The notes below the pieces were generated by a model. That model did not search any database and had not been told where the DNA came from. It saw only the letters and a program-made list of their open reading frames with translations. Positions 11,744 through 39,925 of a stretch of DNA of 64,000 nucleotides are shown in pieces. The translations under genes and the position numbers were made by a program. This stretch comes from Sphingorhabdus sp. M41. Its GTDB lineage: Bacteria; Pseudomonadota; Alphaproteobacteria; Sphingomonadales; Sphingomonadaceae. Every line of letters starts with the position of its first letter. Positions within the stretch are counted from its first letter, which is position 1. The stretch lies in contig NZ_CP014545.1 in the NCBI RefSeq assembly GCF_001586275.1, positions 1,638,501 through 1,702,500 of the forward strand. Direction: 5' to 3'.

Positions 11744-13471
11744 TCAGGCCGCTTCTTGCTGCGTGCTCTTGTTCGGATTTCCATGTTCATATTCGGCGAG
11801 GAAGTGCAGGACTTCCTGCCGGTAGGCATAAAATTTCGGATGTTCGAGCAGCGCCTTGCGGTCGCGTGGTCGGGGCAGATCGACGTCGAGTATCTTGCCG
11901 ATTGTGGCCTGTGGACCGTTGGTCATCATCACCACCCGGTCGGCGAGCAATATCGCCTCATCAACATCATGGGTGACCATGATGGCAGTGACTTTCGTGC
12001 GGTTCCAAACCTCGATCAAGACATCCTGGAGATCCCAGCGGGTCAGACTGTCGAGCATCCCGAAGGGTTCATCGAGGAGCAGCAATTTGGGAGACAAGGC
12101 AAAGGCGCGCGCAATGCCAACTCTCTGGCGCATGCCGTTCGACATGTCGGCGGCCATCTTGTCCATCGCATCGCCAAGGCCGACACGATCGAGATAATAT
12201 TCGATGATGTCCTTGCGCTCCGAACGTGTGGTGTGCGGATAAACCCGCTCTACGCCGAGGGCGACATTCTGTCTGGCGGTGAGCCACGGCATTAATGAAG
12301 GTGCCTGGAAAACGACTGCCTTGTCGGGTCCGGCAACATCAATTTCCCGTCCGTCCAGAACAATCCCGCCGTCGCTAATCTCGTTCAGTCCGGCGGCCAT
12401 GGTCAGCACGGTGGATTTCCCGCAACCGGAATGGCCGATCAAAGAAATAAACTCGCCCTTGTCCATCAGGATATTGACGTCCTCGACCACCGTCAGCGGA
12501 CCTTTGGGTGTTGGGTAAATTTTCTTGAGCTTGAAAAATTCGAGATAGCGCGTCGTGATCGGGCTTTGGGCTGCATCCAGATAGGCCTGCGGCAAGGTCG
12601 CCTCCTTGCCTTCCTGCGTACCTGATAGATCCAGAGGCGTGATGTCCGGCAGGTTCGCGGTCTCGGACGCAACCGCTTTCTGATCGCTGCTCAATATGTC
12701 GAGATAGCCGACGATCGTATTGCGCAGAGTTTTATAGGCGGCATCTTCGTTCATTGCTTCGCGTTCACGGGGGCGTACGATATTGACATCGAATATCTTG
12801 CCGATGGTTGCCGAAGGCGCCGGCGTCAAAATGGCGACCCGATCGGCAAGCAACAAAGCTTCATCGACGTCATTGGTCACCAGAACTATCGTGCGCTTTT
12901 CATGTTTGCGGATGCGCTCGATCTCATCCTGCAATTTGGCCCGGGTCAAGGCATCGAGCGCCGACAGAGGCTCGTCCATCAGCAAAATTTCGGGCTCCAT
13001 CGCCAGAGCACGAGCGACTGCAACACGCTGCCGCATGCCTCCGGACAGCTGAGCAGGTTTGCGGTCCATGGCATGGTCCAGTCCAACCAGTTCGATCTTC
13101 TGCCGCACCAGCGCCGCACGCTCTTCCCTGGATTTGTTCTGATGAACCGCATCGACCGCCAGAGCGACATTGGCTTCAACGCTCAGCCAGGGAAATAGCG
13201 AATAGCTTTGAAAGACGAGGCCACGATCCTTGCCCGGACCTTTGCACGGCTTGCCCTTGACCAGCACTTCACCTGCATCGGCTTCGATCAGGCCGGCGAT
13301 ACAATTTATCAACGTGGTCTTGCCGGCGCCCGAAAAACCGAGAATGGCGATAAATTCGCCATCGGCGACATCAAGGTTGATATTGTCGAGTACATCGCTT
13401 CGGGTACCCGATCCGTCGACAAAGGACTTGCTGACATTTTTCAGGGACAGGATGGGAAGGGGGCTGGTCAT
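11744..13471 (-). CDS. Nitrate ABC transporter, two ATP-binding domains fused in one chain
   Basis: This 575-residue chain holds two complete ABC ATPase domains. Domain 1 has Walker A GFSGAGKTT, signature LSGGMRQRV and Walker B LLMDEP. Domain 2 has Walker A GHSGCGKST, signature MSNGMRQRV and Walker B LLLDEP. The altered second signature (SNG) matches the NrtD type. In cyanobacteria the two ATPases are separate proteins (NrtC and NrtD), and NrtC carries a substrate-binding-like tail. Here both nucleotide-binding domains are joined and that tail is absent. The gene lies 10 bases after the permease gene. Confidence 0.9.
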   Translation of the reverse strand: MTSPLPILSLKNVSKSFVDGSGTRSDVLDNINLDVADGEFIAILGFSGAGKTTLINCIAGLIEADAGEVLVKGKPCKGPGKDRGLVFQSYSLFPWLSVEANVALAVDAVHQNKSREERAALVRQKIELVGLDHAMDRKPAQLSGGMRQRVAVARALAMEPEILLMDEPLSALDALTRAKLQDEIERIRKHEKRTIVLVTNDVDEALLLADRVAILTPAPSATIGKIFDVNIVRPREREAMNEDAAYKTLRNTIVGYLDILSSDQKAVASETANLPDITPLDLSGTQEGKEATLPQAYLDAAQSPITTRYLEFFKLKKIYPTPKGPLTVVEDVNILMDKGEFISLIGHSGCGKSTVLTMAAGLNEISDGGIVLDGREIDVAGPDKAVVFQAPSLMPWLTARQNVALGVERVYPHTTRSERKDIIEYYLDRVGLGDAMDKMAADMSNGMRQRVGIARAFALSPKLLLLDEPFGMLDSLTRWDLQDVLIEVWNRTKVTAIMVTHDVDEAILLADRVVMMTNGPQATIGKILDVDLPRPRDRKALLEHPKFYAYRQEVLHFLAEYEHGNPNKSTQQEAA

Positions 13472-13481
13472 ATATTCTTCC

Positions 13482-14540
13482 TCAAACGGTACGATTGCGG
13501 CTGGCGAAATTTTGCAGCAGCATCATGATCCGGTCGAGCAAGAAGCCGATCAGGCCGATAACGATGACTGCGAACATGATCCTTGCGAGCGACTGGCTGG
13601 ATCCATTCTGGAATTCATCCCAGACAAATTTTCCCAGACCCGGGTTTTGGGCGAGCATTTCAGCAGCGATGAGAACCATCCAGCCGACCCCCAGTGACAG
13701 TCGCATTCCGGTAAAAATATAGGGGAGGGCGGATGGCAGGACCAAGCGAGTAAGTTTGGCGAACCAGCCAAGGCGGAGGACTTTGCCGACGTTGAGCAGA
13801 TCCTTGTCGATCGATGCCGCCCCGATCGCGGTGTTGATGAGCGTTGACCAGAGCGAGCAAAGCATCACAACGATAGCGGAGATTACGAAGCTTTTTGGCA
13901 GGCTGGGGTCGGGGTCGGTCATGGTGGCCGAAATCACCATGGTGACTATTGGCAACCATGCCAGCGGGCTGACCGGTTTCATGATCTGCACGATTGGATT
14001 GATCGCGGCATTGAATGTTTTCGAAAGGCCGCAGATCAGGCCGAGCGGCACAGCGATAATTGTGGCGAGGAAAAACCCCAAAGCCACGGTCGCCAGAGAG
14101 GTCCAGATCTGGTCCAGAAACGTCGGAGGACCGCTATATTGAAAATCCCGCGTCGCTTCGCCATTGGCTGCGGCAGCAGCGTTGCTGGCGTCCTGCGCTG
14201 CATAAAATTCCGCTTCCCGGTCTTGTGCGGCGGACCATTCATCAAAAAGAGCAAGGCCCTGGGCGGAGACTTCAACCGGTCCCGGCAGACTGCCGAGTGA
14301 CGTGTCCACTTGTGGAGCAAGCACTGCCCATAAAGCTAGAAAAGCCAATATCCCAATAATCGGCGCCGCCAGGCTCTTTAGCCAATTGGCGATTTTTTTG
14401 GGATCAATTGGCCAGCTTTTGGCAGTCAGAGGGTTGGCCTTTACCGGCTTGACCGAAAGATCAGCGCCGTCACCTGGCTTTTCTGCTGTGGACTCACTGC
14501 CGCTCTGGCTGTGGATTTTGTCTACAATGACGGTCGCCAT
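13482..14540 (-). CDS. nrtB: Nitrate ABC transporter permease
   Basis: Membrane subunit of the nitrate importer. It has an N-terminal cytoplasmic stretch of about 60 residues, a first membrane segment near IIGILAFLALWAVL, a periplasmic insert rich in Ala, Glu and Asp, and a C-terminal five-helix permease core with the ABC coupling loop. I place the start at ATG 14540, which has AAAGGA eight bases ahead. An in-frame ATG at 14561 lacks such a site. Together with the binding protein and the double ATPase it makes a complete transporter. Confidence 0.9.
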   Translation of the reverse strand: MATVIVDKIHSQSGSESTAEKPGDGADLSVKPVKANPLTAKSWPIDPKKIANWLKSLAAPIIGILAFLALWAVLAPQVDTSLGSLPGPVEVSAQGLALFDEWSAAQDREAEFYAAQDASNAAAAANGEATRDFQYSGPPTFLDQIWTSLATVALGFFLATIIAVPLGLICGLSKTFNAAINPIVQIMKPVSPLAWLPIVTMVISATMTDPDPSLPKSFVISAIVVMLCSLWSTLINTAIGAASIDKDLLNVGKVLRLGWFAKLTRLVLPSALPYIFTGMRLSLGVGWMVLIAAEMLAQNPGLGKFVWDEFQNGSSQSLARIMFAVIVIGLIGFLLDRIMMLLQNFASRNRTV

Positions 14541-14568
14541 GTCTTTGTTTCCTTTATTCATCAGAAGC

Positions 14569-15981
14569 TTAATTGACGCCCGAAGCGGTCACTCGCTGAC
14601 CCTTTTTCAAACCGATCGGGAATTTCGCGAGATAGGCATTGGGCGTTTTTCCGTCGTAGGTGAGGCCATCGATAAAGCCGGATTGTTCGCTTTTGAAACC
14701 GTCGGTTTCCGGTATACTGTCGGCAGGGATAGCTCCCCCATCTGCCAGTTTTTTCGCAGCGGCGAGATATAGGTCCGGCCGATAAACCGCTTTCGCTGTA
14801 TCGAAATACCATTGATCGGTCTGGTCTTCGGCAATCTGTCCCCAGCGCCGCATCTGGGTGAGGTACCAGATTGCGTCGGAGTAAAAGGGGTAGCCGGCAT
14901 AATCGTTGAAGAAGATGTTGAAATCGGGAGCCGCTCGCGTGTCGCCAGATTCAAAGGTGAACTGACCGGTCATCGAAGCCCCGATCACCGCCTCGTCCGC
15001 GCCGACATAATTGGATCGTGCCAGAATTTTAACGGCTTCCGCACGGTTCTTGCCGCCATCAATGTCCAGCCATTGCTGTGCCTTGATAATGGCCCGAAGC
15101 ATGGCGGCGGTGGTCGCGGGATATTTCTCGGCGAAATCCTTGCGCAGCCCGAGGACTTTTTCCGGGTTCTTTTTCCAGATTTCATCGTCGGTAATTACCG
15201 GAACGCCGATCTTCTTCTGCACGGCTGCCTGGTTCCAGGGCTCGCCCACACAATAGCCGTCAATCGTGCCAGCTTCCATCGTCGCCGGCATTTGCGGCGG
15301 GGGCGTGACAGACAAGGCGGCCTCTGCACCAACCGTTCCGGCAACATCGCCCGGCGTGTAGTAGCCGGGCTCAACTCCGCCCGCTGCCAGCCAGTAGCGC
15401 AATTCGTAATTATGCGTGGAAACCGGGAAAACCATGCCCATTTTAAACTGTTTTCCTTGCGCCTTATAGCCTGCAATGACCGGCTTCAGGACCGAAGCGC
15501 TGATCGGATGCTGCGGCTTGCCGTCGGCGTTTTTCTTGAGGCCCGGCTCGATCTGCGCCCATACCTTGTTCGACAGGGTGATCGCATTGCCATTGAGGTC
15601 GAGAGAGAGAGGAGCGATCAGGTCAGCCTTGGTGCCATAGCCAATGGTCGCGGCCAGCGGTTGACCCGCCAGCATGTGCGCGCCGTCGAGCTGCCCCCCG
15701 ATGACGCCGTCGAGCAGCACTTTCCAGTTTGCCTGAGGTTCGAGGGTAACATTCAGACCTTCTTCCGCGAAAAAGCCTTTTTCCTTGGCGATTGCCAGCG
15801 GTGCCATGTCCGTCAGTTTGATGAAGCCGAGCTTCAGGGATGGTTTTTCAATGGCGCCGTCGACGGTGGCGGGCTTTACCGTCTCGCCGCTGTTGGACGA
15901 GCTGTCACCGCCGCTTCCGCAAGCCGACAAAGACACTGCACATACAGCCATGAGAAGAAAGTTGCGGCGGTTCGATTTCAT
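14569..15981 (-). CDS. nrtA: Nitrate ABC transporter substrate-binding lipoprotein
   Basis: Periplasmic nitrate-binding protein of the NrtA/CmpA family. The signal sequence has NRRNFL, a twin-arginine-like start, and a lipobox LSAC with C21 as the likely lipid-anchored residue, followed by a Gly/Ser/Asn linker. The mature domain shares its fold with the downstream-encoded cytoplasmic NasS. A GGGA ribosome site stands eight bases before ATG 15981. It is the first gene of the nrt-porin-nirBD-nasA-cobA run, directly behind the predicted NasT-controlled terminator. Confidence 0.92.
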
Positions 15982-16033
15982 TGCTCATTCCCTTTTTTTT
16001 AACACGGCGACAGGAAAGAACGACACAAGACGC

Positions 16034-16078
16034 AAAAAAACCGCCTCAAGCGGCAGTCGGTTAGACTGGCTCGGGCGG
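16034..16078 (-). terminator. Leader terminator ahead of nrtA
   Basis: Read on the minus strand, CCGCC (16078-16074) pairs with GGCGG (16045-16041). Inside it CAGTC and GACTG form a second stem with loop TAACC. The hairpin is followed by seven T (16040-16034), ending about 50 bases before the nrtA start. A shorter alternative hairpin (CCGC-TTGAG-GCGG) ends at the same T run. Its position between nasS and nrtA, after an ANTAR-type hairpin, suggests it is the terminator that NasT overrides. Confidence 0.8.
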
Positions 16079-16116
16079 CGACATTGCCTATTCGATTATA
16101 TATCGTTCTACCTTGT

Positions 16117-16171
16117 GCTTGCCCCCCATTGGACAAACCGGTAATTTGGATACGGGGTTAACTTTTCCCGT
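16117..16171 (-). promoter_or_regulatory. Candidate NasT (ANTAR) target RNA, two tandem hairpins
   Basis: Minus strand. The second hairpin (16138-16117) has stem GTTTGTCC / GGGCAAGC (eight pairs, two of them G-U) and a six-base loop AATGGG with A at loop position 1 and G at 4, the hallmark of ANTAR-protein targets. Upstream, 16171-16152 can pair as ACGGG / CCCGT around a 10-base loop that contains AAAGTT (also A1, G4), but the stem does not close to a hexaloop. A 13-base linker separates them. The terminator hairpin starts about 38 bases downstream, as expected for NasT antitermination. Confidence 0.7.
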
Positions 16172-16234
16172 TGCGAATCAAATAACATTGGGACCGTGAA
16201 AAAAGCAAGTGGAAATATTGCGCTGCAGCAATTT

Positions 16235-17452
16235 TCAAGCTTTTGGTAAGGCCTCCAGATATTTTTGAACTTCCGTCGGATCAAAAACACGGCCATCAAA
16301 AAAGGGGTTCGCCCCAAGCGTGAGGCGGCCCTGCGTCGAACCCACCGGCATATTTCGAGTGACGCTGCCCTCAAGTTTTGCGTTGGCGCCCGGCATCGGG
16401 GTGTCCAGTCCTTTTAGTGCCGTCCGGTAGACATTGGGACGAAAAACCTGTTCCGCGCGCAACTGATCCTCCGCACTATATTGCAAATGATCCCAGCGTA
16501 CCATTTGCGAATAAAGCCAGGCTGCCTGACTGATCCACGGGAAGTTGGCCGCTTCGCGATACTGGAACATGAAGTCCGGAACATCGACTGGCTGGGCACC
16601 GGCAGTGAACATGATCCGGTCTGATATCGCGCGGTTGATCAGCTTTGCCGAGCCGTCGAGATATTCAGCGCGCGCCAGTATATTGGCATTGGCGTCCCAA
16701 TTTTCCGGATCGATGAAATGTTTCGCGGCAAAATGAAGCGCGCGCACCAGCCGTTCGATTTTTTCCCGATCATCATCCAATCTTGCGGTCGGCATTGCGA
16801 GTACTTTTTCGACTCCCCTGCGCCAAATCTGTGCGGTGACCAGAACAATGCGACCTACTCCACGCTCCACGGCGACGCTGTTCCATGGCTCGCCGACACA
16901 AATTCCGTCCACCTCTTCACTGGCCAGGGCATCTGCCGCAAAAGGTGGCGCGATCGTGACGATGTCGATATCTCTGTCAGGAGCAATTCCACATTGGGCG
17001 AGCCAATAGCGCAACTTGTAATTATGTCCGGAATAGCGATGAACAACCCCGAACCGGACCCGGCTTCCCGCCTTCGCGCGCTCGGAAATTTCGGCCTTTA
17101 ACTTGTTGCCAACCGCAATGGGATCCCCCAGCATGCCAACTGGCGCGACGATATCGGCCAATTTGTGGGACATTGTGATTGCGTTGCCGTTGAGCCCCAG
17201 AATGAACGGCACCGACAGCGCCTTTGCTGGCCGGCCCCGGCCCAAAGTAGTCGCGATGGCGAGCGGAGCCAGCAAATGCGCGGCATCGGTGTGGCCATAG
17301 AGCAATCTGTCCAGAACCGAAGCCCAGCTGACATCCTTGATGAAATTCAGATTCAGGCCTTGTTCTTCGGCAAAGCCATGCTCCTGTGCCAAAATTGGCA
17401 AGGCAGCGTCGACCAGTGGCAGAAAACCGATATTCATTTGATCCAAAGTCAC
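16235..17452 (-). CDS. nasS: Nitrate sensor NasS (cytoplasmic NrtA-like protein)
   Basis: A nitrate/nitrite-binding protein of the NrtA/CmpA fold with no signal peptide, so it should stay in the cytoplasm. In known NasS/NasT systems NasS holds NasT inactive until nitrate binds. The body (LLAPLAIATTLG, GLNGNAITMSHKL, CVGEPWN) parallels the secreted NrtA encoded downstream. The likely start is GTG 17452, overlapping the nasT stop as GTGA; ATG 17437 is an alternative. At 405 residues the length is typical. Confidence 0.9.
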   Translation of the reverse strand: MTLDQMNIGFLPLVDAALPILAQEHGFAEEQGLNLNFIKDVSWASVLDRLLYGHTDAAHLLAPLAIATTLGRGRPAKALSVPFILGLNGNAITMSHKLADIVAPVGMLGDPIAVGNKLKAEISERAKAGSRVRFGVVHRYSGHNYKLRYWLAQCGIAPDRDIDIVTIAPPFAADALASEEVDGICVGEPWNSVAVERGVGRIVLVTAQIWRRGVEKVLAMPTARLDDDREKIERLVRALHFAAKHFIDPENWDANANILARAEYLDGSAKLINRAISDRIMFTAGAQPVDVPDFMFQYREAANFPWISQAAWLYSQMVRWDHLQYSAEDQLRAEQVFRPNVYRTALKGLDTPMPGANAKLEGSVTRNMPVGSTQGRLTLGANPFFDGRVFDPTEVQKYLEALPKA

Positions 17453-18030
17453 AGATCGCCTCCCAGTAATAGCTCTGCCGTAACAATCGACTCCGCCACT
17501 TCGGCCATGCGCTTGTTGCTGTTCATGGCGTGATCGCGCAACAGCTTGTGCGCATCCGGTTCACTCAATCCGCGCTTGCGAATGAGAATTTTCTTCGCTC
17601 GATCGACGACTTCTCGCTCGGACAGCGCGTCTCGCGCTTCCTTGAGTTCGGTCTGCAACCGGGAAAAGGCCTGAAACCGGCGCACCGCCAGATCCAGTAT
17701 CGGTTTCAATCGGCGCTGTGAAAGACCATCGACGATATAGGCAGAAACCCCTGCATCAATAGCTGCTGCGATTGCATCATCATCGGATTGTTCGACAAAC
17801 ATCGCAATCGGTCGAGAAATCGCGCGGCTGACGGAGAAATATTCCTCCAGCATATCACGAGACGGATTGCCGAGATCGATGAGTATGACATCGGGGTCGA
17901 TCGTTTCAATGGCCCGGGCCATGCCATTGCGTTCGGAAATGACAAAAACGTCGCGCTCACCCACTTCAGCAAGCCCGTCTTCCATTATAGCCGCGCGAAC
18001 GGGGTTTTCATCGATGACAGCAATGCGCAA
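17449..18030 (-). CDS. nasT: ANTAR-domain antiterminator NasT
   Basis: RNA-binding response-regulator-like protein. Residues 1-120 form a receiver-like domain (MRIAVIDENPVRAA; DVILIDLGNPSRD with a possible acceptor Asp). Residues about 125-185 form the three-helix ANTAR domain (VDRAKKILIRKRGLSEPDAHKLL). It lies first in the pair with nasS. By analogy with Azotobacter and Pseudomonas NasT it should bind the tandem hairpins in the nrtA leader and prevent termination when nitrate is present. Confidence 0.92.
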   Translation of the reverse strand: MRIAVIDENPVRAAIMEDGLAEVGERDVFVISERNGMARAIETIDPDVILIDLGNPSRDMLEEYFSVSRAISRPIAMFVEQSDDDAIAAAIDAGVSAYIVDGLSQRRLKPILDLAVRRFQAFSRLQTELKEARDALSEREVVDRAKKILIRKRGLSEPDAHKLLRDHAMNSNKRMAEVAESIVTAELLLGGDL

Positions 18031-18211: not shown

Positions 18212-18460
18212 TTAAGTCCGAAGTGCGGGAAGCAGATAATCCACGGCAGTTTTGACCGTCAGCAGTTCCGATGCATCCTTGTCGGGAATGTCGACATCCA
18301 GTCTTTGGTGAAGCGCCGCCAGAAGATTATAGATATCCATCGAATCCAGATCGAAATATTCCTGAATATTGGTGCTATCAGTCACGGTCGACAGATCGAC
18401 TTCGGGAGCAATGGATTCCAGTTCTTCGGCAAATACCCTTTTTACTTCCTCGCGGGTCAT
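18212..18460 (-). CDS. Acyl carrier protein linked to a 2-oxoacid dehydrogenase operon
   Basis: An 82-residue phosphopantetheine carrier protein. The attachment serine is S40 in the motif FDLDSMD. The sequence is acidic and fits a four-helix ACP. It is not in a fatty acid or polyketide setting: its ATG overlaps the stop of the lipoyl E2 gene (ATGA), making it the last gene of a five-gene operon with E1 alpha, E1 beta, E2 and an acyl-CoA synthetase. It may receive the acyl group made by that complex; this is inference. Confidence 0.88.
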   Translation of the reverse strand: MTREEVKRVFAEELESIAPEVDLSTVTDSTNIQEYFDLDSMDIYNLLAALHQRLDVDIPDKDASELLTVKTAVDYLLPALRT

Positions 18461-19620
18461 AGGCTCTCCGGTGTATCAAGTTTCTCGGCTATGGCGTTCA
18501 GGAACAATCCGCCGCGATGACCGTCGCTCACCCGGTGGTCTGCTGCCAATGTCATCTGAACTATCGGCCGCGCAACAATTTCACCCTCGACCACCCATGG
18601 CAGTTCCATGATCTTGCCAAATCCGATTATCGCTACCTGCGGCGGATAGATGATCGGCAGAACGCCTTCCACGCCGCGATCACCGAGACTGTTCACGGTC
18701 ATGGTCGAACTCGTCAGTTCGGACGCACGAAAGCTGCCGCGCCTGACCCTCCCGATCAAATCGCGCATCTGAACCATCAATTCTGCCAATGAAAGCTGAT
18801 CGGCATTCTGAATCGCCGGAGCGGCAAGGCCGCCGCCACGGATTGCAATCGCGACGCCGGCATGAACCGCTTGACTGGTGTTGAACCTGTCTTGTTCATA
18901 AAGCCCATTAAACTCCGGAAAATCGCGGATTGCGAGCGCCGCGGCCTTGACTAGTAGCGCGCCAAATAAAATGCGTTCCGGGGCAGGGCGCTGCAGATTA
19001 TAGTTTTCGAGCCAGTTTTGAGCGCTGTTCACGTCTATCCTGTGCGTCAGATAATAATGCGGAATTTCCCGTTTCGAACGGGACATTGCCGCTGCAATGG
19101 CGTGGCGCATTGCATCCAGATCTATACCCCGTTTTGCGGGCGCAGGTTTCGCGGCTTCGACATCGCGCAGTTGAATGGCACCACTCGGTCCGCTGCCAGT
19201 GATCCCGTTCAAGTCGATTCCATGTTCCCTGGCAAATAGCCGCGCCGCGGGCGAAGCGCGGACTTCCGAGATATCCTCGATAGCCGGGCGAATTGTGGCA
19301 ATCTCCAGGGCCGCTTCTGGTGCCTCCGGTGCTTCCACTGCAACTGGCAAGGCTGGTTCGACAGCTTCGGAAACCGCTGCTTCGCCTGCTCCCGATATTG
19401 TCGCCAGAGGGGAGCCGACCGGCACCTTGCGGCCCTCCGGCACCAGAATTTCCTCGATCTTTCCGTCTTCGAATATCTCTATTTCAATTGCGCCTTTTTC
19501 CGTTTCGACAACCGCAATGATATCGCCGCGGGTCACTGTGTCGCCTTGCGCCTTCAGCCATTCTACAAGCGTACCGTCTTCCATATCGGCACCGAGCGAT
19601 GGCATGGTGAATATGCCCAT
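18457..19620 (-). CDS. Dihydrolipoamide acyltransferase (E2) of a 2-oxoacid dehydrogenase-type complex
   Basis: Core acyltransferase. The N-terminal lipoyl domain carries the lipoylation lysine K42 in ETEKGAIE. An Ala/Pro/Glu-rich linker follows, then a peripheral-subunit-binding domain (RASPAARLFAREHGID to SGPSGAI, about 122-152) and the catalytic domain ending in the DHRVSDG active-site motif. There is one lipoyl domain and 387 residues. It resembles acetoin/pyruvate dehydrogenase E2 proteins; the acyl substrate cannot be told from sequence. Coupled to the ACP gene downstream, and three bases after the E1 beta gene. Confidence 0.88.
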   Translation of the reverse strand: MGIFTMPSLGADMEDGTLVEWLKAQGDTVTRGDIIAVVETEKGAIEIEIFEDGKIEEILVPEGRKVPVGSPLATISGAGEAAVSEAVEPALPVAVEAPEAPEAALEIATIRPAIEDISEVRASPAARLFAREHGIDLNGITGSGPSGAIQLRDVEAAKPAPAKRGIDLDAMRHAIAAAMSRSKREIPHYYLTHRIDVNSAQNWLENYNLQRPAPERILFGALLVKAAALAIRDFPEFNGLYEQDRFNTSQAVHAGVAIAIRGGGLAAPAIQNADQLSLAELMVQMRDLIGRVRRGSFRASELTSSTMTVNSLGDRGVEGVLPIIYPPQVAIIGFGKIMELPWVVEGEIVARPIVQMTLAADHRVSDGHRGGLFLNAIAEKLDTPESL

Positions 19621-19623
19621 CGT

Positions 19624-20604
19624 TCAGGCACCCACCAGTTTGCGGGTCGTCTCGACGATGGTAGCGACCTGCGGCAGCGCTGCCTCTTCCATATGCTTTG
19701 CATAGGGGATTGGCACTTCGGCGCTGCAAAGCCGCATTGGCGGTGCATCCAGAGTCCAGAAACCCTGTTCCATGATGCGGGTCATGATCTCCGCCGACAG
19801 GCTGCCCGAGCGCCAGCCTTCGTCGACAATCAGAACCCGCCGGGTTTTCGCCACCGACGCCATGATGGCTGCATCGTCGAGCGGTCTCAATGTGCGCAGG
19901 TCAAGCACCTCGGCAGAAACGCCCAAGCTCGATAGTTCTTCGGCAGCGTCCATGCATTTCCAGAGCGATCCGCCATAGGTTATCAGGCTGATATCGCTGC
20001 CTTCTCGCCGGATGCTGGCATGATCGATATCGATGGCCGCAAGGTTATCGGGGACTGCGCCCTCCCGGTTATACAGCAGGGCATTTTCAAAGATCAGTAC
20101 CGGATCGGGGTCTTCCAGCGCCCTGGCAAGCATGGCCCGCGCATCTGCCACGGTCGCAGGCGCCAAGATGCGAAGACCAGGAATATGGGCGAACCAGCCT
20201 TCCAGGCTGTGGGAATGTTGCGCCGCAAGTTGCCGCCCGGCTCCGGTCGCCATCCGGATGACGACAGGCACATGAAATTGCCCGCCGGACATGTGCCGCA
20301 TGGTGGCTGCCGTATTCATGATCTGGTCGAGCGCGAGCAAGGCGAAATTGCAGGTCATGATTTCCACAATCGGTCGCATGCCGCCGAGCGCCGCGCCAAT
20401 GCCTGCGCCGGTGAAACCGGACTCGGACAAGGGAGTGTCGCGGATGCGATCCGGACCGAATTCGTCCAGCAGTCCTTTGCTCACCGCATAGCAGCCGCCA
20501 TAATGGCCGACATCCTCGCCCATCAGGAAGACTTTTTCGTCGGCGATCATTGCCTCGCGGATCGCTTCGCGCATCGCCTCGCGATAGGTCATCTTCGTGC
20601 TCAT
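19624..20604 (-). CDS. 2-oxoacid dehydrogenase-type E1 component, beta subunit
   Basis: Thiamine-diphosphate E1 beta chain (AcoB/PdhB-like), with EDVGHYGG near the N-terminus and the C-terminal transketolase domain ([11 protein letters not shown]). The start is ATG 20604, which overlaps the E1 alpha stop as ATGA and gives [10 protein letters not shown], the normal family N-terminus; an upstream in-frame extension to 20655 lies inside the E1 alpha gene and is unlikely. It pairs with E1 alpha to decarboxylate a 2-oxoacid or cleave acetoin. Confidence 0.88.
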
Positions 20605-21587
20605 GTTCGTGCCTCCGCGCCGACATCCCTCAGCAGGTCGGCAACCGGCTCCCACGTTCCCGCCTCGGCAAAAGCGACCGCTTCGGAAACTTCCTGCGCG
20701 ACCTCTTCCTCAATGGCATCTACATCGGCCTGGCTCAGTTCCCCGGCTTCCAGCGCCCAGCTCTGAAAGCGCCGGATCGGTCCGATCTCCGTCCATTTTT
20801 TTACTTCCTGCTTTTCCCGATAAAGTTCGGGATCGAACATCGAATGCGCGCGAAACCGGTAGGTGCGGCATTCCAGAAACACCGGGCCATCGCCTTCCCG
20901 GATCGAGGCAACTGCCCGCCGCGCTGCCACTTCGACATCCACGACGTTCATGCCGTCGACAATCTCGGATAGCATCTTGTAGGACGCCGCCTTGGCGTGA
21001 ATATCGGTCTCCGATTCAGAAAGGTCCAGCGCGGTGCCCATCGCGTAGAGATTATTCTCGCAGACGAACAGGACCGGCAGATCCCAGAGCGCGGCGAGAT
21101 TGAGGCTTTCGTGAAACTCTCCCTCTGCCGCAGCGCCTTCGCCAAAAAAGCAGACCGTGACATTGCTCTTACCCTGCATCTTGTCAGCGAGCGCAAGGCC
21201 GACGGCCATCGGCAGTCCGCCGCCGACAATCGCATTGCCGCCATAAAAGCGGGTTGGCTCATGGAACAGGTGCATCGATCCGCCGCGCCCGCGGCTGCAC
21301 CCTTCCTGTTTGCCATACATTTCCGCCATGATTTCACCCGCCGGCACGCCGCGCAGTAATGCATGGCCATGTTCACGATAGGTTGCGACTACAGCGTCTT
21401 CTTCGTCAAGCGCCTGCATGATACCGGTCGCGACCGCTTCCTCACCGATATAGAGATGCAGGAAACCGCGAATTTTCTCCTTCGTGTAAAGTTCGGCGCA
21501 TCTTTCCTCAAACCGCCGGATCCGCAGCATCTGTTTCAGAAGAAGCCGGCAATGTTCGTGATCAAGGCGCAATTTTGTTCCGGTCAT
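20601..21587 (-). CDS. 2-oxoacid dehydrogenase-type E1 component, alpha subunit
   Basis: Thiamine-diphosphate-binding E1 alpha chain (AcoA/PdhA-like). The cofactor motif runs from [12 protein letters not shown] to the downstream [12 protein letters not shown] and [11 protein letters not shown] are family hallmarks. At 328 residues it is the normal short two-chain form. The start overlaps the stop of the synthetase gene (ATGA) and the end overlaps E1 beta (ATGA). No lipoamide dehydrogenase (E3) gene is present in this cluster, so E3 must be shared. Confidence 0.88.
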
Positions 21588-23350
21588 GACGATGCCTTTT
21601 CCAGAGTTGAAAGGTCACCCTCGGGTAGACCCAGTTCGCGCGCTTTCAAAAGCCGGCGCATGATTTTCCCGGATTTAGTTCGCGGCAGATCGTCCACGAT
21701 GACGATCTCGCGCGGCGCAATTGCCGATCCGAGCCGTTTGCGCGCGTGTCCGAGCAGCGATTTCCGCAAGGCATCATCCGTCTCGTGATCCGGGTTGAGC
21801 AGGACAAAGGCCTTTACAATCTCGCCGGCGCGCTCGTCGGGAATGCCAATCACCGCCGCCTCGGCAACGGCGGGATGTTCCATCAGCGCGCTTTCGACTT
21901 CAAATGGCCCGATCAGATGCCCCGATGACTTGATCACATCATCAGCGCGCCCGACAAACCAGAAATAACCGTCCCGGTCGCGCATTGCGAGATCCCCGGA
22001 CAGATACCATCCTTCCCTGAAACTGGCCTGATAGCGTGCGTCTTCGTTCAGATAACCCCGGAACATCGAAGGCCAGCCAGATTTCAGGGCAAGATGCCCG
22101 ACCGTCATCGGCGCGCCGAGGAACGTCAGTCCATTCTCGTCTCCTTGGTCCTGTACTTCCACAATTGCGGCTTCGATACCGGGCAATGGCTTGCCCATAG
22201 ATCCCGGCTTTACGTCCAGTGAGGCATAGTTGGAGATCATGATGCCGCCGGTTTCTGTCTGCCACCAGTTGTCGTGAAAGGGTTTGCCGAAAATACGGTT
22301 GCTCCAGATGACGGCTTCGGGATTGAGCGGCTCGCCGACGCTGGCGAGAAATCTGAGCGCCGAAAGGTCGCGCGCACGCGGCAGGTCATCTCCTGCCATC
22401 ATCAGCAACCGGATCGCGGTCGGGGCGGTATACCAGACATTCACGCGTTCGGATTCCAGCAGGTCATACCAAGCTTCGGGATTAAACTCGCCGGCATCAA
22501 TGAGCATTGTCACGCCATTGGTCAGCGGCGCAATTATGCCATAAGACATGCCGGTGACCCAGCCGGGATCGGCGGTGCACCAGTAAATGTCGCCGGGTTT
22601 CAGGTCGAGCGCGAGACGACCGGTCGTATGATGGGCGATCACGGCTTCATGCGCATGCAATGCGCCCTTGGGCTTGCCGGTGGTACCACTGGTAAAATGC
22701 AGCAAGGCTATGTCATCCGGGCGGGTTTCTGCAATTTCGAAATCTGCGGGCGTCTTGGCGAGCAAGGCGGAAAGATCAAGCGTATCCGAAGGCGCGCCAT
22801 CATCGGCATCGACGAGCAGAACGTGGCGCAAAGAGGGCAGGGTCGCCCGGGCCGGAGCAACTTTGCGGAGATAGTCCTTCTGGCGCGTAATCAGGACATT
22901 GACCTCGCCAATTTCCATCCGCGCCCGCACTGGCTCGGGCCCGAAGACCGAAAAAAGCGGACAAAATATCGCACCGGCTTTCAGGCTGCCAAGCGCGGCA
23001 AAATAAAGGTCAGGCACGCGACCCAACAGCGAAAAGACCTTGTCACCCGGTTTAACGTCGAGATCCTGCAACAGCCTCGCGAAACGGTCCGACTCCGTCT
23101 TCATTTCCGAATAGCTATATTCCCGCCGGATGCCATCCCGTGCGATCCAGCGAAGCGCTGTTACACTGCCTCGCCCTTCGGCTACGTGCCGATCGACAGC
23201 TTCATAGGCGATATTGAGTATGCCGGGAACAGGGCCGCCCATGGAATCGCGCGCCTTGGCCCATGAAAATTCTGCGGCAGCCTGATCATAATCAGGCATA
23301 TTGGCCATTTCGCGAATGGCTTGTGATTTGTGCAGCGGTTGATCTTTCAC
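21584..23350 (-). CDS. Acetate/short-chain acyl-CoA synthetase-like AMP-forming ligase
   Basis: ANL-superfamily adenylating enzyme of 588 residues. The P-loop is [15 protein letters not shown], the hinge region [20 protein letters not shown], and the C-terminal catalytic lysine lies in [11 protein letters not shown]. The overall shape is that of acetyl-CoA synthetase, somewhat shorter than the roughly 650-residue Acs. It opens the operon with E1, E2 and ACP genes. It may activate an acid as acyl-CoA, or load the ACP with an acyl group; sequence does not decide. The regulatory palindrome lies about 230 bases upstream. Confidence 0.82.
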
Positions 23351-23737
23351 TGGTGGGTCCCTTCCTGTCGGGCATCATGATGCATCGGACATGGAAAACT
23401 CTCTCGGTCGTTGAAGACGCATTCAACAAACGAACATTGAGATATTTTTCACGGGTCAGAAATACGCAGTTATACGGGTGCTTTTGCGCCAGCTGGCAGG
23501 TCCTGGATCGGTCTGCAAAGACAAATCCGAATGGGGCAGGCTTCCAGCGGCGAGCTCAGGGAATATTATTGGCCTAGGGAATATTACTGATCAGTAATAT
23601 TCCGAATGTCTTTTGATCGAGCTTTCGGCGATTAACCTTATGACTCGCCGGAGCAGCACTCCCTGACCCCCCGTTAATGATCTGTTCCGGCGAGATCCAT
23701 CCTGACAGAGTAATCAACGATAAGCCCTGTGCGTCAA
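23351..23737. other. Intergenic control region upstream of the synthetase/E1/E2/ACP operon
   Basis: 387 bases with no credible gene. It holds the palindrome cluster at 23559-23603 and a ten-base palindrome GCCAGCTGGC at 23488-23497. It separates the synthetase gene (start at 23350) from the ATP-grasp gene end (23738); both are on the minus strand, so the region is the promoter side of the former and the 3' side of the latter. I could not fix a sigma-70 or sigma-54 promoter with confidence. Confidence 0.6.
23559..23603. promoter_or_regulatory. Perfect 26-bp palindrome plus an extra direct half-site, candidate operator
   Basis: Positions 23578-23603 equal their own reverse complement, centred on TGATCA with arms GGAATATTAC / GTAATATTCC. 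The half-site GGGAATATTA occurs at 23577-23586 and again 18 bases earlier at 23559-23568. There is no T run on either side and the stem is AT-rich, so an operator fits better than a terminator. By position it would act on the synthetase/E1/E2/ACP operon. Confidence 0.65.
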
Positions 23738-25252
23738 TCAAGTGATGCCGCGGACCGCATGCGGCGTTACCGTCTGCAATATCGAAGCCCCGATATGCCG
23801 AGCGGCAGCCTGAGTAGGCGCGACCACGAAAAAGGTGACATTCTGCTGAAATTGATCCGTCGGCTCGAGGAATACGGCGCCTTCGCCTTTATCTCTGGAA
23901 TAGATCCAGGTGCTGACATCCTTCAATAGCGCGTCAAAACCGGCAATATTCCTGTCACGAAACACGCGCTGCACGACAAGCAATTCGGAGGAGTCATCAA
24001 TTCCGGGCAAATTGCGTGCAGCAGTCATTGGAATGGAAACACCGCCCCAACGGCCATTGCATTCAATCCAGTGCAGCGCCGCATTGCTCAAATCCGGTCC
24101 GGTCAGTAACGCATCAAGACTCATGCGCCCGAAAAAGCCCAGGCACTGGAAATAATAAGTGATTTCAAGTGCTTCCTGATAGAAACGAGCTTCCAGCGGT
24201 TGCGGTAAATCAATTGCAGTAGCACCGATAAATGACTGGTTCTCGCCAGCCAGAATTTGTCCGAAAATACCTTCGACTATGGGAGGTCCATCCTCGGCTC
24301 GGGGTATCCAGACTTGTGCCGACGGGCTGGCCAATGCAGCGACTTCCCAAACACCGATCAGAATGGGAAAGCGATCACGCCAGCCGATCGCGTGCAATCG
24401 CTCCAGCAATTCATCCCTTAATTCCCTGGATGTGAGCGAGCGGACATAATCGCTCTCCATCACCAGATTGCCCATTGAACCGGCACTGGCCGGCAATTTG
24501 ATCACGAGCCGGTCATGGGTGCGGGCAAGCTTGCCCAATATTGCTGCCGCTGCAATCGGACCATAGACGGAATAGGTCGGTGGAACGGCATCTTTTCCAA
24601 GGATCATTTTTATATGGTTTGAAAACCATAGCTTGTCGTTAACAAGCCGGGAAAGCTGCGGGAGCGGCGCGCATATCTGAACCGGGCACCCGGATCGCCG
24701 GGCGATTTCAGCGCCCAGCAGCCAGTCATGGCCCGTCGACAAATAGGGACAGATATTGAATGTTCCGGCTCTGGCAGCCGCGGCCGCGAGTTTTGACAAA
24801 GCCGCTTCATTGTTCAGGCAAGCAGCTGCAAGCGGAACTCGCAAGCGGCTGTCACCTCGATCAACCTCGATTATGTGGGGACCGTCATGACCGAAGACAT
24901 TTCTTGAATATGTTTCGAAGGACTTGATCCTGGGCCGCGATATCAGCAGAAAATCGTCGTCCCGCGCCAGTCCCAACATGCGATATTCGTGGCTTGCCAC
25001 GCGATCTTCCGGCATCAGTTCTATGTCCCGATGGTCCTCCAGCAGCAATAGCGGACCTTCCTGATATCCGGCACTGACATGATCGCCGAATATCGAGGCA
25101 TCGTTCAGCCTGGGAAAATTTCTGAACTGCTTGTTCGCGAGAATTTCGATCCGATGTCTGGTTTCTTGCGAAAGCTCGAGATCAATCGCAGTCTTTACCG
25201 GCCAGGGCGCAAGATGGATTTCCTGGTTTGCAGTCGGCGCCAGGATATCCAT
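23738..25252 (-). CDS. ATP-grasp family ligase, substrate unknown
   Basis: A 504-residue protein with ATP-grasp character: N-lobe NDKLWFSNHIKMILG (about 206-219), a lysine strand LVIKLPASAGSMGN (249-262), and a C-terminal metal-binding strand WIECNGRWGG with E397 and N399. The first about 190 residues look like a pre-ATP-grasp domain, as in PGM1-like peptide ligases; this is inference. I choose ATG 25252, where the stop of the hemerythrin gene and this start share bases (TAATG). The frame can be extended to 25306, but only inside the hemerythrin gene. The substrate and nucleophile are unknown. Confidence 0.68.
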   Translation of the reverse strand: MDILAPTANQEIHLAPWPVKTAIDLELSQETRHRIEILANKQFRNFPRLNDASIFGDHVSAGYQEGPLLLLEDHRDIELMPEDRVASHEYRMLGLARDDDFLLISRPRIKSFETYSRNVFGHDGPHIIEVDRGDSRLRVPLAAACLNNEAALSKLAAAAARAGTFNICPYLSTGHDWLLGAEIARRSGCPVQICAPLPQLSRLVNDKLWFSNHIKMILGKDAVPPTYSVYGPIAAAAILGKLARTHDRLVIKLPASAGSMGNLVMESDYVRSLTSRELRDELLERLHAIGWRDRFPILIGVWEVAALASPSAQVWIPRAEDGPPIVEGIFGQILAGENQSFIGATAIDLPQPLEARFYQEALEITYYFQCLGFFGRMSLDALLTGPDLSNAALHWIECNGRWGGVSIPMTAARNLPGIDDSSELLVVQRVFRDRNIAGFDALLKDVSTWIYSRDKGEGAVFLEPTDQFQQNVTFFVVAPTQAAARHIGASILQTVTPHAVRGIT

Positions 25253-25740
25253 TATTCTGGTTGCTTTGTCGCAAAATCGGTCCATGCCGGCGCAAGCTTC
25301 CGCCAATATTGCAGGCGCTTCATCAGATCATCCTTGGCTGCTTCATCCAGCCCTCCCATGGCGCCAAAAAGCTCTCCGCATTCCGATACATGCTGCTCCA
25401 TCTCGTCGATGCGATCGAGCAGTTGCTGCTTCTGTACTAAATGCAGTGGGATATCGGGATCAAGTTCGGCAATAGTGCTGAGTGTCTCGGCACCATGAGC
25501 ATGTTCTGCATACATTTCCTCCACTTCATCGGCCGAGAGGAAGGTTTTGAGGGCAGGGTAAAAATCCTCTTCCTCAAAAGCGATGTGACCGCCGGCCGCC
25601 TTGTCCAGATTTTGTGCTGCGGATTTCAAGCCGCCAACATCGCCTGCCGTGACCAGCGAACGCAGCTCATGAAGCCCGCGCCCCAAAATTGCGTGATCCT
25701 CCCGAAAGGCGTTAAATAGTCCGTGATTGATCTTGGTCAT
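25252..25740 (-). CDS. Hemerythrin-like HHE-domain protein
   Basis: A single four-helix hemerythrin-like domain of 162 residues with the expected diiron ligands: REDHAIL, HIAFEEEDFYP and YAEHAHGAE. Such proteins bind O2, NO or iron. ATG 25740 has AGG eight bases ahead and is preferred over the in-frame GTG 25749. Its stop overlaps the start of the ATP-grasp gene, so the two are translated together. A degenerate FNR-type palindrome (25791-25804) is centred 57 bases before the start, suiting an activator site at about -41. Confidence 0.8.
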   Translation of the reverse strand: MTKINHGLFNAFREDHAILGRGLHELRSLVTAGDVGGLKSAAQNLDKAAGGHIAFEEEDFYPALKTFLSADEVEEMYAEHAHGAETLSTIAELDPDIPLHLVQKQQLLDRIDEMEQHVSECGELFGAMGGLDEAAKDDLMKRLQYWRKLAPAWTDFATKQPE

Positions 25741-36592: not shown

Positions 36593-36606
36593 TTGATCAT
36601 GATCAA
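36593..36606. promoter_or_regulatory. Perfect FNR/FixK box upstream of PEP synthase
   Basis: TTGAT-CATG-ATCAA is an exact match to the FNR consensus and a perfect palindrome. Its centre is about 66 bases ahead of the PEP synthase ATG, allowing a site at -41.5 and a leader of about 25 bases. The divergent alcohol dehydrogenase starts 160 bases away on the other side and could also respond. The regulator gene two positions downstream encodes a protein with FNR-type recognition residues. Confidence 0.8.
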
Positions 36607-36665
36607 CTTGCAAAATCAATTCCGTGACGTTCGGGGGTGCCGGGGGGATTGTTCTGGAGATGCAT

Positions 36666-39116
36666 ATGTCCGAGAATAACTATGTTCGCTGGCTTGGCAC
36701 CGTAACGCTTGACGACCTGCCGCTTGTTGGTGGCAAAAATGCTTCGTTGGGGGAACTGGCTGGCGTTCTGCCCGCCGTGATCAAGGTACCCGAGGGCTTC
36801 GCCATCACTGCTGTGGCCTATCGGGATCTTCTGGAGAGCAATCAGCTATGGCCCAGGATGGACGAGATACTCGAAAATACGGACTGGTCAGACCTGAACG
36901 CCGGAGCGCGAATGTCTGCGCAGCTGCGGGAAATGGTCGCGACGGCAAAACTGCCGCCGGGCCTTGATGCGGAAATCCGGCAGGCATATCAAAAGCTCTG
37001 TCAGGATCACGGCCGCAATGTTGCGGTAGCGGTGCGCAGCAGCGCCACCGCCGAGGATCTGCCCGGCGCATCCTTTGCCGGCCAGCACGAGACATATCTT
37101 AATATTCACGGCGCCCAGAATTTGATCGATTCCGTCCGTCAGTGCTTCGCTTCGCTGTTCACCCAGCGCGCCATCTCCTACCGGATTAACAAGGGATTTG
37201 ATCACAAGGATGTGGCTTTGTCGGTTGGCATTCAGCGGATGATCCGGGCTGACAAAGCTTCTTCCGGAGTGATCTTCACGCTGGATACCGAAAGCGGAAA
37301 CCGTGACGTCGTGATGATAACCGGCCTTTGGGGCCTGGGGGAGGCGATTGTTCAGGGGATCGCCGACCCGGACGAGTTTCTTGTCCACAAACCGACCCTG
37401 AAACTCGGCCACGAATATGTTCTAAGGCGCCGGATCGGCAGCAAGAAAGCCAAGCTCATCTATGCTGCGGCCAAGGCTGACGAGCCAACGGTCTGGCGCA
37501 ATGTGCGGCGTTCGGATCAGCTGAAACCTTGCCTGACCGACCCCGAAATCATCGAACTCGCCAGACAGTCCGTGGTGATTGAAACCCATTATAGCGAGAG
37601 ACACAGGCGCCCGACGCCGATGGATATCGAATGGGCCAAGGACGGACCCGATGGCGCACTTTATATCCTGCAGGCCCGTCCTGAAACCATTCATGCGTCC
37701 GCCGATGTCGGTCTTTTGACGCAATATAAAATGACCGGTGATGGCAAAGTGATTGTCGAGGGTCAGGCTGTCGGCGATCGGATCGGCAGCGGGCCGGTGC
37801 GGCTGGTGATGGACAGCGATGAACTGGAAACGGTCCGGTCGGGCGATATATTGGTGGCCACAGCCACCACGCCCGATTGGGAACCGGCGATGAAAAGGGC
37901 ATCGGCGATCATAACTGAACATGGAGGACGAACCTGCCATGCCGCTATCGTGGCCCGGGAACTGGGCATTCCGGTAATCGTCGGGGCCGCGAACGCGCGG
38001 CAGCTGTTGATCCCGGGGCAGGAAGTCACGGTCGACTGTTCGCAAGGGATGACGGGAAGGGTGCTGGACGGGATCATTCCCTTTTCCGTCGATACGGTTG
38101 ATATCGGCAAGCTGGAGCGGCCCGAAACCGATCTGATGGTCAATATTGCCGATCCGGGCGCAGCCTTCCGCGTCGCCGCTTTGCCGGTGGCGGGTGTCGG
38201 TCTTGCGCGCTGCGAATTTATCATTGCCAACGAAATCAAGGCCCATCCGATCGCCTTGCTTTCTCCCGAACGCATCCGAAGCCAGCGCATTCGGAAACAG
38301 ATTGATATTCTGACCTCCGGTTATGCAAGCGGTGCAGACTATTTTGTATCGCGCCTCGCCGAGGGGATCGCGACCATCGCGGCAGCCTTCTATCCCCGTC
38401 CGGTCATCGTCCGGACATCGGATTTCAAATCGAATGAATATGCCTCCCTGCTCGGTGGACATGATTTTGAAGAACCGGAAAACAACCCGATGATCGGGTT
38501 TCGCGGCGCGTCCCGCTATATCCATCCCGCCTATCAAGCCGCCTTTGCACTGGAATGTGAGGCCTTGAAGCGTGTTCGGGATGATATGGGCCTTGCCAAT
38601 GTCGTCGTCATGATACCATTTTGCCGGAGGATCGACGAGGCCAAGCAGGTTCTGGCAGTGATGGCGGAAAACGGTCTCGAACGTGGCAGGAATGGCCTTG
38701 AAATATACATCATGTGTGAAATTCCCAGTAATGTCATTTCGATCAACGCGTTTGCAGCTCTATTTGACGGCTTTTCGATTGGCTCCAATGACCTGACTCA
38801 ACTCGTGCTTGGAGTGGACCGGGATTCAGAAATTCTGGCGGGCGATTTTGACGAGGAAGACCCTGCGGTTCTGGCCATGATTGAGCAGGCCATTGCAGGC
38901 GCGCATCGCAATGGTGTGAAATGCGGCATTTGCGGGCAGGCGCCTTCTGATCGCCCGGGTTTTGCCGATTGGCTGGTCGCCCGAAAAATCGACAGCATAA
39001 GCCTCAGCCCTGACAGCGTGCTTGGTGTGATGCAGCGGCTTGCCGCGAAGCAGAAACCAGACAAGAAGGCAAAGCCGCCAACCGGGATCAAACGCCCTTC
39101 GAAAACGAGCGCATGA
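36666..39116 (+). CDS. ppsA: Phosphoenolpyruvate synthase
   Basis: Converts pyruvate and ATP to PEP, AMP and phosphate (or works in reverse to yield ATP). Order of domains: N-terminal ATP-grasp part (LVGGKNASLGEL, VAVRSSATAEDLPGASFAGQ), swivelling phosphohistidine domain with H425 in GGRTCHAAIVA, and C-terminal PEP/pyruvate barrel (GFRGASRY, CEIPSN, IGSNDLTQ, GICGQAPSDRP). The start ATG 36666 has GGAG six bases ahead; ATG 36660 is the alternative. It sits in the stress island behind a perfect FNR box and its stop directly abuts the regulator ATG. Confidence 0.92.
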   Translation: MSENNYVRWLGTVTLDDLPLVGGKNASLGELAGVLPAVIKVPEGFAITAVAYRDLLESNQLWPRMDEILENTDWSDLNAGARMSAQLREMVATAKLPPGLDAEIRQAYQKLCQDHGRNVAVAVRSSATAEDLPGASFAGQHETYLNIHGAQNLIDSVRQCFASLFTQRAISYRINKGFDHKDVALSVGIQRMIRADKASSGVIFTLDTESGNRDVVMITGLWGLGEAIVQGIADPDEFLVHKPTLKLGHEYVLRRRIGSKKAKLIYAAAKADEPTVWRNVRRSDQLKPCLTDPEIIELARQSVVIETHYSERHRRPTPMDIEWAKDGPDGALYILQARPETIHASADVGLLTQYKMTGDGKVIVEGQAVGDRIGSGPVRLVMDSDELETVRSGDILVATATTPDWEPAMKRASAIITEHGGRTCHAAIVARELGIPVIVGAANARQLLIPGQEVTVDCSQGMTGRVLDGIIPFSVDTVDIGKLERPETDLMVNIADPGAAFRVAALPVAGVGLARCEFIIANEIKAHPIALLSPERIRSQRIRKQIDILTSGYASGADYFVSRLAEGIATIAAAFYPRPVIVRTSDFKSNEYASLLGGHDFEEPENNPMIGFRGASRYIHPAYQAAFALECEALKRVRDDMGLANVVVMIPFCRRIDEAKQVLAVMAENGLERGRNGLEIYIMCEIPSNVISINAFAALFDGFSIGSNDLTQLVLGVDRDSEILAGDFDEEDPAVLAMIEQAIAGAHRNGVKCGICGQAPSDRPGFADWLVARKIDSISLSPDSVLGVMQRLAAKQKPDKKAKPPTGIKRPSKTSA

Positions 39117-39911: not shown

Positions 39912-39925
39912 TTGATCAGGGTCAA
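39912..39925. promoter_or_regulatory. FNR-type box with one mismatch upstream of the stress protein gene
   Basis: TTGAT-CAGG-GTCAA matches nine of ten fixed bases. Its centre lies about 41 bases before a plausible start site near 39960, with a -10-like CTATGT at 39947-39952. The universal stress protein starts at 39994. This is the best-spaced FNR/-10 arrangement in the window. Confidence 0.65.

Follow-up and report, generated by a model that had tools for sequence, protein, structure and literature searches.

Free coenzyme A (CoA) as the acyl acceptor is a textbook constant of 2-oxoacid dehydrogenases. Among these, the pyruvate dehydrogenase (PDH) complex, with its heterotetrameric E1, lipoyl E2 and Lpd as E3, and acetoin dehydrogenase, encoded by acoABC, are the described systems to which the locus reported here can be compared. 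We analysed a stretch of 64,000 nucleotides (nt) from Sphingorhabdus sp. M41 (NZ_CP014545.1, positions 1,638,501 to 1,702,500), called the window below, in which five minus-strand genes at 18212-23350 encode, in 5' to 3' order, an AMP-forming acetate--CoA (acyl) ligase or synthetase (ACS), E1 alpha, E1 beta, E2 and an acyl carrier protein (ACP).

The operon has the E1 alpha/beta and E2 domain layout, the catalytic motifs and the E2 core fold of the PDH complex, but it adds the ACP and the AMP-forming ligase, lacks an E3 gene (which is not required of all complexes), carries an E2 whose catalytic domain falls into its own clade with a changed residue by the acyl site, and in part of its relatives stands in a stress or FNR context. 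With acetoin dehydrogenase it shares the E1-E1-E2 operon layout and a thiamine pyrophosphate-dependent E1, and it differs in its E1 alpha motifs (YREHG/FYGG instead of HRGHG/GANG) and in having an ACP, which is absent from four acetoin-type reference loci. The ligase resembles AcsA or Acs1 of Syntrophus aciditrophicus in reaction type, yet it is encoded together with a PDH-like complex and an ACP. The ACP, finally, has the PP-binding fold and the invariant Asp-Ser of AcpP from fatty-acid synthesis, but lies below the acyl_carrier equivalog cut-off of that pathway (TIGR00517, 46.2 against 70.45 bits) and has a clade motif of its own, I-A-P-E...D-S-M-D; the host has a separate PP-binding open reading frame (ORF) that scores higher, at C1:1506292, one of three besides the operon ACP.

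All parts are known families, and RefSeq names all five genes; no description of the operon was found by title or abstract opening in the open PMC library with the terms used. That the five genes form a conserved system is confirmed. As to its role, the reading that we prefer, to which we give a probability of roughly 45%, is that of an extra 2-oxoacid dehydrogenase module, most likely for pyruvate, which would serve under low oxygen or in dormancy and use its private ACP as the acyl carrier. A widespread E2 clade that, with its lipoyl lysine intact, is found only with a private ACP adjacent (or at a contig end) puts the CoA-acceptor constant in doubt. For genes labelled simply pdhA, acsA and 'acyl carrier protein' in databases, a low-oxygen or stress role is pointed to, and cells that are dormant or short of oxygen might gain an energy route by it.

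Layout and conservation of the operon

Three of the joints are ATGA stop/start overlaps: at 21584-21587 between ACS (21584-23350, 588 amino acids (aa), GTG start) and E1 alpha (20601-21587, 328 aa), at 20601-20604 between E1 alpha and E1 beta (19624-20604, 326 aa counted from ATG; a longer frame also opens, at 20655), and at 18457-18460 between E2 (18457-19620, 387 aa) and the ACP gene (18212-18460, 82 aa). The E1 beta/E2 joint is a 3-nt gap (19621-19623). Gene content, coordinates, overlaps and gap had been given in an earlier sequence-only reading of this DNA and all proved exact when the sequence was read again; its statement that no E3 is encoded was also borne out, there being no lpd among the operon genes. 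An lpd homologue is near 2 of 85 operon loci, with none in the surrounding DNA of the other 83, and in a comparison within the same 13 genomes lpd is near 0/13 operon loci versus 9/13 canonical E2 loci (one control stretch measured 11.6 kb, not 20, and several of the operon loci fell short of 21 kb). An E3 for the complex has to be supplied from outside the operon, and the E3-binding domain is retained in the operon E2. The host genome, a single contig of 3.34 Mb rated 100% complete, has three further 2-oxoacid E2s, which we assign from sequence and neighbours to the PDH, 2-oxoglutarate and branched-chain types; the operon therefore represents an additional complex, not the housekeeping one.

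An E2 similarity scan of genome contigs gave 570 loci, the best 80 of which (L038-L117) were taken, and seven more were picked by ACP similarity, so that the latter are not independent for the pairing. The resulting 87 loci are 85 distinct ones, as L033/L053 and L034/L040 are the same contigs taken twice. The sequence-only reading depended on the ACP gene being conserved with the rest, and so it is: the gene lies behind E2 in 80/80 loci picked by E2, as well as in all seven picked by ACP. The order ACS-E1 alpha-E1 beta-E2-ACP, which that reading had proposed to check, holds in 79 of the 87 loci. ACS is detected in 80 of them; five of the other seven (L049, L075, L085, L096, L115) run off the contig and two (L095, L108) do not. 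In L064 and L082, ACS lies about 1.6 kb further upstream, and in the rearranged L074 the E1 genes are more distant ones. An E2/ACP overlap of exactly 4 nt is shared by 77/87 loci, which is far beyond chance.

Two further genome draws, not chosen by ACP and having four genomes in common, were examined. At class level, the E2 locus is present in 17 of 385 genomes (18 loci), with the ACP in 17 loci and the remaining one ending inside E2; at phylum level, it is present in 14 of 398 genomes, with the ACP in 14/14. A plasmid search with E2 matched 32 records, and among the 14 examined the ACP accompanies 12 of 13 operon-type regions, the exception (L161) being described below. When 147 genomes of the order were searched with the ACP itself, seven relatives were found at E <= 5.5e-11, all beside a similar E2 and E1 beta, and the weaker matches examined had no such E2 adjacent. 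The ACP profile gave no match at E <= 0.01 in 25 control loci with a canonical E2 or a PDH- or acetoin-type E1 (two of these, L143 and L187, overlap).

By record titles, many of them of metagenome bins, the operon is spread over about nine phyla: Alpha-, Beta- and Gammaproteobacteria, Nitrospira, Acidobacteria, Rokubacteria, Myxococcus, Planctomycetes, Binataceae, 'Deltaproteobacteria', an Actinomycetota bin and one Chitinophaga-labelled bin, to which isolate plasmids add Streptomyces, Embleya and Rhodococcus. Its distribution is thin but broad, which is what a portable accessory unit would be expected to show. The part of the sequence-only reading which made the ACP a component of the system is strongly supported by this pairing over about nine phyla, by the invariant phosphopantetheine (Ppant) serine, by the separate E2 clade and by 0/25 controls; the two routes that it proposed, transfer from lipoamide to the ACP and charging of the ACP by the synthetase, stay conditional and are weighed below. 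A phage or virus origin was considered and rejected, as phages gave only weak E2 matches (18 records, the five listed being 26.6-29.8% identical) and viral contigs gave none for the ACP.

Subunit families and the separate E2 clade

ACS has the Pfam domains AMP-binding and AMP-binding_C, its closest solved chain is the acetyl-CoA synthetase 9g79 (E 6.7e-170), and with 869 bits it lies above the curated acetate--CoA ligase cut-off of 729 (NF003313), which makes it a member of AcsA. On the Cupriavidus plasmid copy (L165, 372-4950), two AMP-binding genes stand directly 5' of acsA.

E1 alpha (Pfam E1_dh) is above the PDH equivalog cut-off (TIGR03182, 448 versus 394 bits) and E1 beta (Transket_pyr and Transketolase_C) above that of NF006667 (406 versus 321). 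Against solved chains, E1 alpha scores 235 bits with human PDH, 127 with BCKDH E1 and 112 with the Bacillus-type PDH E1 1w85. The motif YREHG is found in the window and in 28 of 29 sampled operon E1 alphas, the remaining one having YREHA, whereas four acetoin references show HRGHG; by first match of the pattern in 78 relatives, 65 have YREHG, three YRDHG and ten another string or none. In the E1 alpha tree, the operon E1s separate as a group from the acetoin type (support 88/89, below the starred level). As E1 alpha has YREHG and separates from acetoin-type E1, an oxoacid substrate, most simply pyruvate, is expected. An acetoin dehydrogenase was rejected on the same motif and tree, and the comparison with it in the sequence-only reading was dropped, YREHG being PDH-type. 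This tree and that of E2 were built from every third operon row, a few plasmid rows and references, with 30 and 33 operon rows. It needs to be added that E1 alpha and E1 beta are apparently fused in a subset of operons, L036 and L157 among them, a single frame of about 665-667 aa spanning both positions; 15 loci of the contig survey show it, and on the Leisingera plasmid (L157) the fused frame is annotated by RefSeq.

The ACP passes Pfam PP-binding (PF00550, 31.5 bits versus a cut-off of 20.8) and no NCBIfam cut-off. Its Ppant serine, Ser40 in DLDSMD, is invariant (88/88), and the protein is acidic, with a net charge of -11 in the window and a median of -9 over 78 loci. The solved ACPs nearest to it in sequence include that of mitochondrial complex I (6gcs).

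The E2 consists of a lipoyl domain with Lys42 (Biotin_lipoyl), an E3/E1-binding domain at residues 120-155 (E3_binding) and a catalytic domain at 164-387 (2-oxoacid_dh) with DHRVSDG at 361-367, and it too passes no NCBIfam cut-off. As E1 and ACS pass ordinary family cut-offs and E2 and ACP none, the change therefore sits at the acceptor end. In an alignment of 89 E2 sequences, lipoyl Lys42 and the catalytic DHR are present in 89/89 and Asp366 of DHRxxDG in 88/89. A tree of catalytic domains sets 33 ACP-linked E2s and one orphan against nine canonical E2s (PDH, 2-oxoglutarate, branched-chain, acetoin type and others), on a branch with 100/100 support and a length of 2.07. The clade is marked by Y189, R216 and M282 (89 of 89 each), R261 (87), Y325 (86), R181 (85) and E185 (84); R184 is invariant in the clade, yet present in two of the nine canonical E2s. 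Position 360 is Ala or Gly in 89/89 clade E2s and Cys, Phe, Tyr or Thr in the nine canonical ones. It sits two residues before the catalytic His, as does Tyr314 of OdhA, the actinobacterial 2-oxoglutarate enzyme, which is described as touching the acyl group and has been put forward as a specificity feature (PMC10415282).

An AlphaFold2 model of the E2 has a mean pLDDT of 84.7, with most of the catalytic domain above 80, but only 64-66 for residues 161-190. Foldseek matches of the model are E2 cores of known complexes, e.g. 7q5r (root-mean-square deviation 1.9, TM 0.90 by target). The model has a helix at 168-181, and entry of the lipoyl arm has been described at the end of helix H1 of E2 (PMC9681731); R181-E185 may thus lie at the end of H1, by the point of lipoyl-arm entry, a placement which we infer from a weakly predicted stretch of the model.

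The orphan is an E2 of Sinorhizobium sojae (L161, 6827-8158), in which the lipoyl lysine has been lost and next to which there is no E1, ACS or ACP. It branches with the operon E2 of Sinorhizobium fredii (L158, 11992-13149), the exception at Asp366, where His replaces the Asp of DHRxxDG although operon and ACP are present. This His is common to both, and only the loss of the lipoyl lysine is private to the orphan. Contig end aside, this sole clade E2 found without an ACP looks like a remnant. Near it, on the opposite strand (L161, 9326-12208), is a 960-aa gene with an ACP-like start (LGIDSLG) and an AMP-ligase-like part.

A possible role under oxygen limitation, a proposed acyl relay and rival explanations

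For the oxygen side of our preferred reading, 71 loci with enough upstream sequence were surveyed. The exact string TTGAYNNNNRTCAA, which we take to be an FNR/FixK/DNR-type box, occurs in 23 of the 71 operon upstream regions versus 1.3 expected, the expectation coming from same-locus windows that include coding DNA and the counts ignoring kinship, while 11 composition-matched control palindromes gave 0/71 each. Of the 25 sites, 18 lie 61-108 nt before the ligase start. Low-oxygen control of the operon family is indicated, as far as sequence motifs can tell, by these FNR-type boxes, which are present in roughly one upstream region in three.

The neighbourhood adds a stress context. RefSeq-annotated operon regions show universal stress proteins, Hsp20, PPDK/PpsA, nicotinate phosphoribosyltransferase, P-type ATPases, DUF2267 and Crp/Fnr genes, and a universal stress protein or Hsp20 is present in seven of eight of them (L155-L159, L164 and L166; not L165). 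With tblastn, stress-island markers, chosen after stress islands had been seen, were found near 9/13 operon loci versus 1/13 canonical E2 loci in the 13 genomes used for lpd. The stress link is real but not universal.

The proposed relay has four steps. E1 alpha/beta would decarboxylate the oxoacid and acylate the lipoyl arm of E2, as judged from the family and the motifs present. Next, the ACP might accept the acyl group on its phosphopantetheine thiol, the divergent E2 delivering it from dihydrolipoamide either in place of CoA or in addition to it. The synthetase might act on the same acyl-S-ACP, which is the weakest step; its direction would most likely be acetate release, with ATP gained from AMP and pyrophosphate (PPi), in stress, or else acetate loading when energy is ample. 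E3 would be borrowed from the other complexes of the cell through the E3-binding domain of E2. With the synthetase encoded in the operon, free acid is suggested as the end point or the starting point of the acyl group, and the E2-ACP-synthetase relay seems reasonable because the synthetase, too, belongs to the conserved set (80/87 loci). For the ACP as acceptor speak the near-obligate pairing, the stop-start overlap with E2, the invariant Ppant serine and a divergence confined to E2 and ACP. Acs1 of S. aciditrophicus is described as making ATP and acetate from acetyl-CoA, AMP and PPi (PMC4992975), and such reverse operation of a ligase for ATP gain would suit oxygen limitation, direction and carrier in the operon being our inference. 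In its boldest form, which we offer only tentatively and consider unlikely, the proposal says that the ACP replaces CoA as the acceptor and that the synthetase closes a CoA-independent path from pyruvate through acyl-ACP to acetate and ATP, an oxygen-starvation reserve that would travel as a portable unit through about nine phyla, often within stress islands; it would be the first ACP-dependent 2-oxoacid dehydrogenase.

Several observations weigh against the preferred reading, beginning with the kinship ignored in the box counts and the late choice of stress markers. No TTGAYNNNNRTCAA box lies upstream of the window's own operon, even with one mismatch. Three of the nine marker-positive genomes are Nitrospira, and 50 of 85 loci show none of the stress markers, while 35 show one. 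Pfam neighbour tallies, made on mechanical ORFs (one 1962-aa ORF of L109 was left out of the alignment), are small, with Pribosyltran 4, Usp 3 and HSP20 3 of 132 ORFs, though none of these is among the 25 control families shown. At the level of the enzymes, the synthetase, with its 869 versus 729 bits, has the appearance of an ordinary acetate ligase that uses CoA, and the E2 fold and DHR motif are the same as in CoA-using E2s. The E2 core of Escherichia coli is reported to take CoA from the inner cavity, its opening being about 30-40 A (PMC8421416), and therefore the ACP would have to get inside the core or use another mouth; an opening of this type may or may not be wide enough for an ACP. 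In L095 and L108 the upstream sequence is present, yet no E1 alpha or ACS was detected in it, and the S. fredii E2, with His for Asp, suggests that not every copy need be active. Lastly, mirror-tree comparison by raw distances has the ACP following ACS (0.30) and E2 (0.23), not E1, but by tree distances it follows E1 beta most (0.35); this result is method-dependent and is not used as support, only the pairs ACS-E2 and E1 alpha-E1 beta being stable under both methods.

In general, AMP-forming ligases are known to load carrier proteins. The rival that survives best, although we hold it to be improbable, builds on this: an ordinary PDH would make acetyl-CoA, and the synthetase would load the ACP with acetate or a short acid for fatty-acid, lipid or polyhydroxyalkanoate synthesis, both being co-expressed since they supply acetyl units. 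The ordinary family scores of E1 and ACS and the retained fold and DHR motif of E2 fit this well. It offers no reason, however, for the bond between the ACP and a separate E2 clade, or for the overlap of the ACP gene with that of E2, not ACS, in 77/87 loci; neither does it account for the E2-specific residue signature, and among neighbouring ORFs of at least 90 aa no gene for a synthase or reductase is found repeatedly.

Quite improbable, on the other hand, is that the ACP is an octanoyl donor for on-the-spot lipoylation of E2 by the LipB/LipA route, with CoA remaining the acyl acceptor. LipB is described as taking octanoyl from ACP (PMC9307952), and mitochondrial ACP has been treated together with lipoylation and PDH-E2 defects (PMC6895606), which lends this idea some appeal. 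But no ACP of the operon family is found around the host's three other E2s (L136-L138), no LipA homologue in the DNA around the 85 operon loci, and six acetoin, PDH or TPP-dehydrogenase reference clusters lack such an ACP, though two of them have lipA; the signature in the E2 catalytic domain, too, would not be accounted for. Still less probable is a structural or sensory ACP, as in mitochondrial complex I, stabilising E2 or reporting acyl/CoA state with no flux through it: obligate pairing and the closeness of 6gcs would agree with such a role, but a purely structural one would not demand the invariance of Ser40 (88/88). Least probable of all is that the substrate is an oxoacid other than pyruvate and the acyl-ACP a special starter for a lipid or secondary product, which the Ala/Gly at position 360 near the acyl pocket and the E2 passing no family cut-off would favour (human branched-chain E2 presumably has Ala at the matching position too), but which the PDH cut-off passed by E1 alpha, its closeness to human PDH over BCKDH E1 (235 versus 127 bits, though 1w85 scores 112) and the lack of any polyketide-type cluster in the eight annotated regions inspected argue against.

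Neighbouring genes and sites

Upstream of the operon in the window, at 23578-23603, is a perfect 26-bp palindrome, GGAATATTACTGATCAGTAATATTCC, a candidate operator which is also listed as terminator-like on the plus strand. It was rejected as a regulon site, as its 22-bp core pattern has no second match in the genome with <=2 mismatches, and perfect palindromes of at least 14 nt are not enriched upstream of relatives (5/71 versus 4.4 expected). Outside the operon, as context, the window's stress island has a PpsA/PPDK-like gene (36624-39116, longest frame) with the exact FNR/FixK-type box TTGATCATGATCAA at 36593-36606, 17 nt before that frame. A Crp/Fnr-family gene (39117-39857, plus strand), a candidate regulator, is followed just after its end by another exact box at 39912-39925. 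Beside this island, an open frame of 2830 aa extends over 41098-49590 on the plus strand. No RNA elements from Rfam were found in the part of the window between 17 and 25 kb.

Directly downstream of the operon, at 11744-18030 on the minus strand, are nitrate/aliphatic-sulfonate-type ABC genes, two NMT1-like proteins and an ANTAR regulator, presumably a NasS/NasT-like arrangement. A link to these nitrate-assimilation genes was given up as unsupported: among the 87 loci, counted on the operon strand up to 6 kb from E2, neither the ANTAR gene nor the NMT1-like one at 16235-17452 has a homologue. A biosynthetic-cluster reading was likewise abandoned: the Streptomyces, Rhodococcus and Leisingera plasmids inspected for polyketide context show stress islands instead. 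Beyond the five genes and frames overlapping them, the commonest neighbour clusters (ORFs of at least 90 aa) reach no more than 8-9 of 86 loci. A 522-aa gene with a pre-ATP-grasp domain lies just upstream of the operon, at 23738-25306 on the minus strand; homologues of it (37% and 33%) are near the operon also in L128 and on the Leisingera plasmid, so it may be a recurring partner.

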